Shown: positions 1,500 to 4,118 of the stretch, piece by piece | How the letters are laid out: each line of letters starts with the position of its first letter | Position numbering within the stretch: the first letter of the stretch is position 1 | Virus record (IMG/VR): IMGVR_UViG_3300046007_004921 | Span: 1-21,683 of that record | Length of the DNA stretch: 21,683 nucleotides | Source: a virus | Reading direction: 5' to 3' (one strand) | The notes under the pieces: model-generated | Databases searched by the model: none | What the model was told of the DNA's origin: nothing | Seen by the model: the letters and a program-made list of their open reading frames with translations, nothing else | Position numbers and translations under genes: made by a program

Positions 1500-1720
1500 A
1501 TGAGACAGAAGCCATGCTTCGCGAAGCCCGCGACAAATGTTACAGGCTACGAAGGGATCGTTTAGCTATTACAAGATCTTATTTGGATGTATCAGAAATG
1601 CTTGATAAGGCTATAGATGGCCTCAAAGAAATTGCCAAGATGGACACCTTACAGGGGGCCAGTCCGCAACAATGCGGAGCCGTCTTAATTGCTATGAATA
1701 CTTTGCAAGAGCTTCAATGA
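1496..1720 (+). CDS. Small helical protein, 74 aa
   Basis: Not recognised. The composition suggests two or three helices with a charged, coiled-coil-like N-terminal half (ETEAMLREARDKCYRLRRDRLAITRS is mostly charged heptads) and a C-terminal helix ending NTLQELQ. The ATG overlaps the upstream stop (ATGA at 1496-1499), and its own stop overlaps the start of the glycosyltransferase-like gene in the same way, so it belongs to the same coupled series. A structural or adaptor role is possible but unsupported. Confidence 0.55.
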   Translation: MNETEAMLREARDKCYRLRRDRLAITRSYLDVSEMLDKAIDGLKEIAKMDTLQGASPQQCGAVLIAMNTLQELQ

Positions 1721-2805
1721 ATATTGTCTTTGCCTACCACAACGGAGATGCTGAATTGGCTATGGAGTCAGCCAAGGCGATTACAGCTTTTGGCATCAAC
1801 ATGCGACATAAGGCGACTTTATGCTGCACGAAGGATACATCTGGAGCTTCGGACATCATCTATGAACTAAAGAAAAGTTTTCCTGAAGTTGACCAATTGT
1901 TCGCCCAAGACGGATTTGACGGCTGGCCTCTTGGCCCAAACCAGATGTTTGCCGATGTAGCTGCTGCAATGTACCCAACCAATACCCCGTTCTACTTCTG
2001 GGAGCCAGATTGCGTTCCGATGAAAGAAGGATGGGCTGACGATCTCGACGTTGAATACCACAAACAGGTCGGTATTCTTGGTCACCTTTACGAGGGTGGC
2101 ATGGCATCCAACGGAAAAAACATCTACAAGATGATCGTTGGAAGCGCGGTCTATCCTGCTAATTTCTTGGACTTTTGTCCTTCGGCCCAATCTCTATCAA
2201 CCTACAATTTGGCCTATAGGGAATCAGGAAATGTTCCAGAGCCTTGGGACGTTCGTTGTCGCTGGAACTTCATGGAGATTGGCCGCGACACGCCTCTTAT
2301 CCGAACCTACTGGAAAAGCGTTAACTACCAATGGAAGGATGGGAAAATTGTGTTTTTTGCTGCTGATCCAGAAGCCCAAGCGGTTCAGGGTGTTACTTGC
2401 CCAGACAGAGTTATATCCAGCCAAGCCGTGGTCATTCACGGGTGTAAGGATGGATCTCTCCACAAAATGGCGCAAGAGGGATTTCCAATGCCGTCAGATT
2501 CCACGGGATTAAATACCCCATCGAATTCGATGGGATTAAAAAGGGGGGGGCAAATTGCCACCCCCCTTGTGCAAAGCGTCAACAATGATGCACAAAGTCC
2601 TACAGTTTGCAACAATACCTCAGATGTGAGCAATTCGCCAGAAGTGGCGACAAAATCAAAATCTACTCTAAAGCCAAAAAATAACTCGTCACAAAAGGCG
2701 AAAAAGAAGCGAGTTATCTCTGAGGTGGAGCGCGAACGCCGCAGGCAGGCGATGATGGAAATTTTGCAAAGAAAGCGTGAACGAAAGGCCCAAGAGGCTG
2801 TCTAA
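1717..2805 (+). CDS. Glycosyltransferase-like protein with basic C-terminal tail, 362 aa
   Basis: Residues 1-250 look like a GT-A-type glycosyltransferase domain. There is an opening strand MNIVFAYHNGD, an alternating alpha/beta pattern, an acidic motif E96-P-D98 in FYFWEPDCVP that fits the metal/nucleotide-sugar DxD position, and a late histidine (H241 in VIHGCKDGS) that fits the closing metal ligand. Such enzymes in phages modify DNA, virion proteins or host envelope; the substrate is unknown. From about residue 258 a Ser/Thr/Asn-rich low-complexity linker leads into a Lys/Arg-rich helix (KKKRVISEVERERRRQ and onward). The DNA for this tail carries a cluster of inverted repeats and an 8-G run. 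The ATG at 1717 overlaps the upstream stop (ATGA); an in-frame upstream extension lacks support. Confidence 0.6.
   Translation: MNIVFAYHNGDAELAMESAKAITAFGINMRHKATLCCTKDTSGASDIIYELKKSFPEVDQLFAQDGFDGWPLGPNQMFADVAAAMYPTNTPFYFWEPDCVPMKEGWADDLDVEYHKQVGILGHLYEGGMASNGKNIYKMIVGSAVYPANFLDFCPSAQSLSTYNLAYRESGNVPEPWDVRCRWNFMEIGRDTPLIRTYWKSVNYQWKDGKIVFFAADPEAQAVQGVTCPDRVISSQAVVIHGCKDGSLHKMAQEGFPMPSDSTGLNTPSNSMGLKRGGQIATPLVQSVNNDAQSPTVCNNTSDVSNSPEVATKSKSTLKPKNNSSQKAKKKRVISEVERERRRQAMMEILQRKRERKAQEAV
2491..2717. repeat. Cluster of inverted repeats within the 3' part of the glycosyltransferase-like gene
   Basis: Successive inverted repeats: an 18-bp perfect palindrome CCCATCGAATTCGATGGG (2517-2534); AAGGGGGG plus GGCAA paired with TTGCC plus CCCCCCTT, one bulged base (2541-2568); TTGTGCA/TGCACAA (2567-2573, 2589-2595); CTCA/TGAG with a 4-base loop (2619-2630); TCGCCA/TGGCGA with a 4-base loop (2635-2650); ATAACTCG/CGAGTTAT with a 21-base loop (2681-2688, 2710-2717). 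A GGGATTAAA direct repeat flanks the first palindrome. The series ends about 100 bases before the helicase gene. Function unknown. Confidence 0.7.
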
Positions 2806-2813
2806 CGCTTCCT

Positions 2814-4118
2814 ATGCAAGAAGTCATCTTTGAACCATCCGCCGAAACCGCCATTCTTTCATGCCTCTGTCATGCCCCGTCAGAGGATCAGCGTGAGATC
2901 CTTTTATCCATAAAGGAAGATCATTTCTACCTTCAGGAGAACAAGATCATCTTTCGGGCAGTCATGCGCTGTATCGCCAAGGGGATGCAGGCAGACATCA
3001 TCAATGTTAAAGGAGAGATCGAAGCCGCCAACGAATACGATATTGTCGGGGGTGAACAAAAGATTACAGAAGTTGCAACTTCGTGTGTAGCCCACAACAA
3101 CTGGAAACGCTACTACCCCAAGCTGGAAGAGGCCCGCTACAGAAGGTCGTTGGAATACTTGGCCAATGACATGGTTCACAAAGCCAGAGATCGCGAACTA
3201 AAGATCGAAGAACTCAAGAATTGGTCGGAAACCACTGTCATGCGGGCTGACTACGAGATGGATGATGGCAGCAAGCTGTCTATTAACAATGCCTTGGATC
3301 GCGCTGCCCAGAACATCGAATCCACGATTGCTGGAAAACCCTGTATCGGCATTCGCACTGGCATCACTCCATTGGATGACCTTCTTATGTTTGGCTTGCG
3401 TGGCGGGGACATGGTTGTCTTGGCTGCGAGACCAGCGGTTGGTAAGACGGCCAGCGCCCTTCAGATTGCTGAAAACGTGGCGCTTAACCAGAAGAAGCGG
3501 GTATTAATCTTTTCTTTGGAGATGACAAGCGTTGCCCTCATGGAGCGCATGATCCGCTCGCGGGCGCGTGTGGGTGCTGCTGACATCCTTTCTGGTCGGG
3601 TAGCCCCGCATCAGAAGCAATCTCTCGGACGGGCTGTGCAGGAAATCCAAGCATCTGAAATCATTTGCGACGATAGCTCGGCTAAATCTATCGGCTATCT
3701 CAAGGCGGTAGCTCGCCGTGCCCACCAACGCACTCCGCTAGACCTCATCATCATTGACTACCTCCAGTTGGTTAAGGGCGATAGCAAGAGGGGCAAAGAC
3801 AATCGCGTGTGCGAGGTTGAGGAGATTAGTGGCGGAATTAAGGATCTGGCTAAAACCCTCAAGGTTCCCGTTTTGGTGTTGGCTCAACTAAACCGCGATC
3901 CCGACAAGCGCGGAGGACGCCCAAGCCTTTCAGACCTCAAGGGATCTGGAGCCATCGAACAAGACTCAGATATCGTCATCATGCTTCACAGCGAAGACGC
4001 CCAAGACCATGAGCAGAATCCTACCATGGAGTTTATTGTCGGCAAGCATCGTGACGGGCCTACAGGCGTGGCCAACATGAGCTTCAATAAGGCGATTACC
4101 CGATTTGAGATGGCGTAG
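2814..4118 (+). CDS. dnaB: DnaB-family replicative DNA helicase, 434 aa
   Basis: This is the ring helicase that unwinds DNA ahead of the phage replication fork. Residues 1-110 form the N-terminal DnaB domain (SAETAILSCL opening). After a linker comes the RecA-type ATPase domain: Walker A ARPAVGKT at 205-212, FSLEM at 243-247, Walker B IIIDYLQL at 312-319 with D315, the VLAQLNR sensor region near 365-371, the SDLKGSGAIEQDSD segment at 383-396 and a GKHRDGPTG arginine-finger region at 410-418. The length fits the family. It begins 8 bases after the preceding stop with no clear Shine-Dalgarno motif. The 3' end overlaps the minus-strand cysteine-rich gene by 23 bases. No primase domain is present, so priming must come from elsewhere. 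Confidence 0.97.
   Translation: MQEVIFEPSAETAILSCLCHAPSEDQREILLSIKEDHFYLQENKIIFRAVMRCIAKGMQADIINVKGEIEAANEYDIVGGEQKITEVATSCVAHNNWKRYYPKLEEARYRRSLEYLANDMVHKARDRELKIEELKNWSETTVMRADYEMDDGSKLSINNALDRAAQNIESTIAGKPCIGIRTGITPLDDLLMFGLRGGDMVVLAARPAVGKTASALQIAENVALNQKKRVLIFSLEMTSVALMERMIRSRARVGAADILSGRVAPHQKQSLGRAVQEIQASEIICDDSSAKSIGYLKAVARRAHQRTPLDLIIIDYLQLVKGDSKRGKDNRVCEVEEISGGIKDLAKTLKVPVLVLAQLNRDPDKRGGRPSLSDLKGSGAIEQDSDIVIMLHSEDAQDHEQNPTMEFIVGKHRDGPTGVANMSFNKAITRFEMA

Follow-up and report, generated by a model that had tools for sequence, protein, structure and literature searches.

Why should coding DNA just ahead of a phage replicative helicase gene be packed with inverted repeats? The repeats lie at positions 2491-2717 of a linear virus record of 21,683 bp, all of which was analysed and is called the window below; they fall in the tail of an open reading frame (the host gene) that is followed by dnaB (Table 1). 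The original prediction offered three readings: a replication origin, a protein-binding array, or a hot spot that generates hairpins and at the same time forms the basic tail of the protein.

Table 1. Coordinates of genes and repeat features at the cluster (window numbering).
Feature	Position	Strand	Remarks
Host ORF	1672..2805	+	377 aa; glycosyltransferase-like by appearance only; from the ORF list
Block A1 (PSDSTGL)	2491..2511	+	imperfect palindrome; 21-nt unit; absent from L032, present in L022
Block A2 (NTPSNSMGL)	2512..2538	+	27-nt unit with palindrome 2517-2534; absent from L022 and L028, present in L092 and L093
Block B, G/C hairpin	2541..2570	+	arms 2541-2548/2561-2568; ~30 nt; absent from L009; inverted in L007 relative to L006
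Stem TTGTGCA/TGCACAA, B-C junction	2567..2595	+	needs C to be preceded by a block whose end is GTG
Hairpin H1 TCGCCA-GAAG-TGGCGA (block D)	2635..2650	+	
Outer stem ATAACTCG/CGAGTTAT	2681..2717	+	encloses hairpin H2 (2686-2701)
Basic C-terminal helix, conserved	2701..2802	+	kept in 61/64 relative tails
DnaB-type replicative helicase	2814..4118	+	Pfam DnaB_C 9.3e-78; phrog_19 5.6e-87

Inverted repeats in the tail of the host gene

The cluster contains a perfect palindrome of 18 bp (2517-2534), a G/C stem (2541-2548/2561-2568) and further stems at 2567-2573/2589-2595, 2635-2640/2645-2650 and 2681-2688/2710-2717. The G/C stem had been described as 13 bp long; it is indeed present, but this length is slightly high, as there are 8 perfect base pairs, extended in the predicted RNA fold to 12 pairs interrupted by a single bulged base. 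From the end of the last arm, the dnaB ATG (2814) is 97 bases away, in good agreement with the estimate of about 100 bases in the original prediction. Allowing loops of up to 30 bases, 8 stems of at least 6 bp (two of them sub-stems of a G run), 4 of at least 7 bp and 3 of at least 8 bp are found in 2491-2717, while dinucleotide shuffles (n=2000) hold a mean of 1.0, 0.23 and 0.06 such stems, and the observed numbers are reached in 0, 1 and 0 shuffles, respectively. Synonymous recoding of the tail (n=2000) gives a similar result, with means of 1.0, 0.34 and 0.07 for the same three thresholds compared to 8, 3 and 2 observed; these are reached in 0, 9 and 1 recodings. The dense inverted repeats are thus real and exceed chance by both standards. 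A density scan against shuffled controls, which had been proposed as a check, places the cluster beyond the shuffles and ranks it as the highest stem density of any 227-bp stretch in the window; the claim that no such cluster occurs elsewhere holds for these 21.7 kb, but pieces of the relatives' contigs contain other stretches with 4-5 stems, at equal or higher density. When the record was searched against itself for repeats, the DNA of the cluster was not repeated in the window beyond its own site. As a candidate intrinsic terminator (G/C stem plus a T run on the coding strand), a sole site was found, at 2566-2545 on the minus strand; shuffles average 0.8 such sites, and the candidate was rejected.

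The earlier label of the host gene as glycosyltransferase-like describes its appearance, but finds no backing in databases: there are no Pfam matches and no significant PHROG matches, and the AlphaFold model (mean pLDDT 35.7) is of too low quality for fold comparison. Within this poor model the linker has no secondary structure, and the C-terminal helix is fairly confident. An alignment of 23 sequences, including relatives, suggests that the true start of the gene is the ATG at 1717. Searches of 50,697 phage records with the host gene and the terminase large subunit gave no matches, and the DnaB matches among phage records were all <60%; relatives were obtained from IMG/VR, where 80 of 121 loci were kept for the host gene and 80 of 93 for DnaB.

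Whole blocks are gained and lost between near-identical phages

We define the tail as running from residue 263 to the start of dnaB; loci in which both ends could be placed provide 64 distinct sequences, with lengths from 222 to 522 nt and one odd case of 1091 nt (L154). Divided by three, the tail length leaves a remainder of 2 in 52 tails, of 0 in 11, and of 1 in L154 alone; the tails with remainder 0 go, at least in most cases, with a second type of DnaB that is about 40% identical to the first. All tails except three (L045, L071 and L154) are open up to the conserved C-terminal helix. As a separate observation, the same host gene and linker are followed in some loci by one DnaB type and in others by the other (L053-L082 vs L003-L052), which implies that the helicase itself has been exchanged.

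The linkers are built from recurring blocks, namely A (PSDSTGL, PSNSMGL), B (GGGQIATPLV), C, D, E and S, and regular expressions for these blocks distinguish 19 architectures among the 64 tails. Zero, one and two A units are found in 20, 19 and 25 tails, respectively, and block B in 9. Even among the 31 tails whose DnaB N-termini (100 residues) share at least 99% identity, 4 have no A unit, 17 have one and 10 have two, and the lengths span 224 to 356 nt. Alignments of pairs chosen by eye reveal the loss or gain of exact units between near-identical flanks: L032 and L022 differ by 21 nt (A1), L022 and L092 as well as L028 and L093 by 27 nt (A2), L032 and L092 by 48 nt (A1 and A2), and L003, which is of the window type, and L009 by 30 nt (B). 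These differences of 21, 27, 30 and 48 nt are all multiples of three and in frame, and they separate phages with DnaB N-termini that are 99-100% identical; whole blocks thus turn over in frame between near-identical phages. Blocks A and B joined as a single string are rare, with 6 stretches found, 3 of which are the host gene.

The excess of stems is seen across the family. In 55 distinct linkers, which are related to one another and do not amount to 55 independent tests, we find 67 stems of at least 6 bp (loop of at most 12 bases), compared to a mean of 18.1 and a maximum of 32 in 300 synonymous recodings, where codons were drawn from the gene core and dnaB, and L045, L061, L071 and L154 were left out. 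In the same recoding test, control stretches lie at expectation, with 2 stems vs 1.4 (gene core) and 5 vs 2.8 (dnaB). For hairpin H2, which can be placed in 54 of the tails (not in the other 10 of 64), the pair types are mixed: C-G in 33, T-G in 9, C-A in 7 and T-A in 5; we do not take these counts as proof of covariation.

One pair of phages retains the signature of a copying event. Between L006 and L007 there are 11 substitutions in 356 positions, 4 of them inside hairpin B, and a letter-by-letter check demonstrates that all four changes are accounted for by one 17-nt reverse-complement copy; a single such copy explained none of 20,000 randomly drawn sets of four changes. The peptide of the hairpin is GGGQIATP in one phage and GGWQFAPH in the other. 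A scan of all pairs of equal length that differ at no more than 40 positions explained 1 of 298 distinct substitution clusters in this way, and 0 in reversed and complemented controls; no template-switch event beyond L006/L007 was found in all tail pairs. Hairpin-directed copying is thus seen in one event and is otherwise our inference. The event resembles template switching in yeast, for which spacer inversion and arm homogenisation are described (PMC8604942), and the upkeep of hairpins by template switching proposed for RNA genes (PMC8794818): the arms are homogenised, the spacer is inverted, and one reverse-complement copy suffices. Quasipalindrome mutations as described there are point events in existing hairpins, whereas in the phage linker whole hairpin blocks also turn over. 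Block turnover, 67 stems where recoding gives 18, and the template-switch signature support in substance the original suggestion of a hairpin-generating hot spot that forms the protein tail.

Blocks and palindrome in unrelated genes

A second phage gene (L247, L296) came to light through close variants of the palindrome; it is unrelated to the host gene and is a primase according to PHROG (phrog_2597, E 2.8e-21; Pfam DUF5906). We fetched 18 relatives; as L754 does not span the linker site, 17 cover the linker (L737-L753), which is hypervariable and sits between ..YFNPxAG and DIYYDGK. It contains NPS[KN]STGLE (block A) and/or EGGGQ[IS]A[AT]PL (block B), except in L739, L742, L750, L752 and L753, from which both are absent. 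Blocks A and B, with the consensus PSxS[TM]GL and GGGQxAxPL common to both genes, thus recur in the unrelated primase linker, in the order and frame that they have in the host gene. Other hairpins of the primase linker are GTATCG..CGATAC, which alternates with GTATCA..TGATAC, and the H2-like TCGTCATCCAAGACGA. The 14 distinct primase linkers hold 55 stems of at least 5 bp, compared to 24.8 (maximum 37) after synonymous recoding; for an upstream control in the same genes, the numbers are 28 and 30.1, as expected.

The 18-mer itself occurs in 73 viral-contig stretches, 27 of which are the host gene by a hand count of contexts; the rest belong to other phages, where the 18-mer often lies beside tRNAs or together with A/T runs resembling terminators. 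A 22-base version is present in at least 119 stretches of prokaryote genomes, with one or two palindrome sites per genome; most of the matches listed lie in KilA-N-type genes, where the palindrome is read as NPVEFDGI or NPIEFDGI, in a frame other than that of the phage linker. Since this search selected for the palindrome, KilA-N genes were resampled by protein (Pfam assigns the query to KilA-N with E 5.2e-23) in 887 genomes from four phylum samples (145, 196, 247 and 299), giving matches in 87; the centres of the four samples are genomes known to hold the palindrome, so that these four genes are not independent of it. The motif is covered by 77 alignments, 65 of them distinct.

The resampled genes, from bacteria and archaea, contain a coding palindrome of 30 bp that is centred on the E and F codons within the KilA-N domain (L555-L643; e.g. 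L584:1693-1728). On average, 13.1 of 15 positions about the E/F boundary form Watson-Crick pairs, compared to 10.2 when the 3' arms are re-dealt (maximum 10.7 of 1000), 7.9 after synonymous recoding (maximum 8.5 of 1000), and a mean of 4.0 at other codon positions. Of 975 cells, 93.5% are paired; 9 of the 15 pairs have changed on both sides, and covariation is 0.442 vs 0.149, with slides never exceeding 0.140. The 65 segments encode 37 octapeptides, among them NPVEFDGI, KVVEFDHF, KPLEFERF, NYGEFAII and NTTEFSSI. Covariation of the arms thus preserves the KilA-N palindrome even as the encoded peptide varies. A second palindrome lies 43-183 bp upstream of the KilA-N gene in L555, L556, L558, L561, L586 and L608, and is absent from most genes; its arms often differ from those of the palindrome inside the gene. 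No KilA-N gene was found in 17 contig pieces of the phage family and the window, where contigs may be incomplete genomes, and the link suggested between the phage cassette and the KilA-N palindrome is one of sequence identity.

A stereotyped intergenic hairpin, AAACCC[AG]TCGAAATCGA[CT]GGGTTT, was also noticed in many unrelated-looking phage contigs (L644-L736 and earlier loci), and is probably a terminator. Pooled with 18 previously found loci, intergenic phage hairpins with these arms have the core AAAT in 64 cases and AATT in 19; given this dominance of AAAT, many of them are probably plain terminators, and part of the shared sequence may reflect convergence.

Proposed assembly of the linker and competing explanations

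We suggest, with a probability of roughly 0.6, that the cluster encodes a linker, disordered and hypervariable, that has been put together from short portable cassettes; several of these would be palindromes or hairpins of 21-30 nt. New hairpin blocks would arise or arrive through hairpin-directed copying, either by template switching at the fork or by recombination with copies elsewhere, and the same process would then keep the arms paired. Selection would purge frameshifts and retain the C-terminal helix, so that blocks survive only if they are in frame and lie in a permissive linker. The cluster could in this manner be explained without any origin or regulatory role. Against the cassette model speaks that only one template-switch event is seen among all pairs. 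Blocks E and S have no obvious hairpin character, which means that the linker must also be shuffled by ordinary recombination among relatives; and as no convincing copies of the blocks were found elsewhere in the pieces of family contigs examined, no donor copy is seen in the same genome. It is possible that the host-gene and primase linkers share a function, or that a common cause at the protein level lies behind the shared peptides.

If the cassette model is correct, short DNA hairpins would be portable building blocks of phage protein linkers, and a coding palindrome could persist over phylum-level distances despite changes of peptide; with dozens of near-identical phages that carry different block sets, birth, loss and rewriting of coding palindromes become directly testable. 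In phages of the T4 type, short stem-loops in promoter/stem-loop cassettes are thought to mediate modular shuffling; those cassettes are intergenic and regulatory, whereas the linker hairpins are coding. PARCELs are horizontally spread coding repeats with dyad symmetry (PMC2996958), but form tandem arrays of a 25-residue amphipathic motif, whereas the phage linker contains several unlike blocks in one or two copies. Translated genes of nematomorph mitochondria also have perfect inverted repeats, with template switching as the proposed cause (PMC6649704); there the repeats are long and lie in conserved animal mitochondrial genes, whereas the phage repeats are short and lie in a disordered linker. 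Our literature search found no paper on the palindrome or the block peptides and, judged by titles and the starts of abstracts, none on KilA-N and palindromes or on coding hairpin cassettes in phages; subscription literature was mostly outside this search, and the novelty of such cassettes is provisional.

A far wider scheme can be drawn from the KilA-N data, in which a self-maintaining family of coding palindromes spans bacteria, archaea and phages, and hairpin-directed copying among KilA-N genes (the commonest carriers), intergenic hairpins and disordered phage linkers would supply in-frame peptide blocks; we regard this as rather doubtful.

An mRNA structure ahead of dnaB that modulates translation, stability or termination is unlikely to account for the cluster. 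The RNA fold of the window has a z of -5.5, z is below -2 in 12 of 17 tails tested, a terminator-like site exists on the minus strand, and the same arms occur between genes in other phages, where they resemble terminators; but across these 17 hand-chosen tails z ranges from -5.4 to +0.6, the upper value belonging to L058 with an identical DnaB N-terminus, the tail of which has a fold not superior to those of shuffles, the tails share no common structure, the single terminator-like site equals the shuffle expectation (0.8), and no Rfam family scored above its gathering score.

Slightly less probable still is a classical mobile element mobilised by a transposase in trans, modelled on the Rickettsia palindromic elements (RPEs). 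According to PMC10969869, RPEs are palindromic DNA of ~150 bp inserted in frame into coding genes, with many copies per genome and the same element in unrelated genes. The phage blocks likewise insert in frame in unrelated genes (indels of 21, 27, 30 and 48 nt; the primase as second gene), and the palindrome is widespread. RPE length is about 100-150 bp, whereas the phage units have 21-30 nt and occupy one site per genome; exact copies number one or two per genome, pattern matches number 0-3 per record and all lie in the linker (in family contigs whose sites were read), and the aligned pairs have no identified target-site duplication.

Protein-level selection for the linker peptides, with the stems as a by-product of peptide sequence, would fit with blocks A and B being read in the same frame in the host gene and in the primase, but we consider it quite improbable, given that recoding the peptide with synonymous codons leaves fewer stems than are observed and that KilA-N genes read the palindrome in another frame and stay palindromic while the peptide changes.

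The origin of phage lambda lies inside gene O, and in origins of this type iterated direct repeats serve the initiator. A comparable origin inside the host gene, as originally proposed from the adjoining dnaB and the dense stems, is not supported and is very improbable: L032, L058 and L075 lack most or all stems despite DnaB N-termini that are 99-100% identical, iteron-like direct repeats are absent (2300-3000 has just three repeats, of 8-11 nt and with two copies each), as is any local rise in AT content (GC 0.48-0.49), cumulative GC skew does not turn consistently at the cluster in four relatives, and the same blocks also occur in a primase gene elsewhere. Stem conservation and GC skew, both of which had been put forward as checks of the origin claim, thus came out against it, and we caution that a hairpin cluster beside dnaB is not always an origin.

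Elsewhere in the window, a small HNH endonuclease-like gene is encoded on the minus strand at 505-909 (phrog_740, E 1.4e-7).
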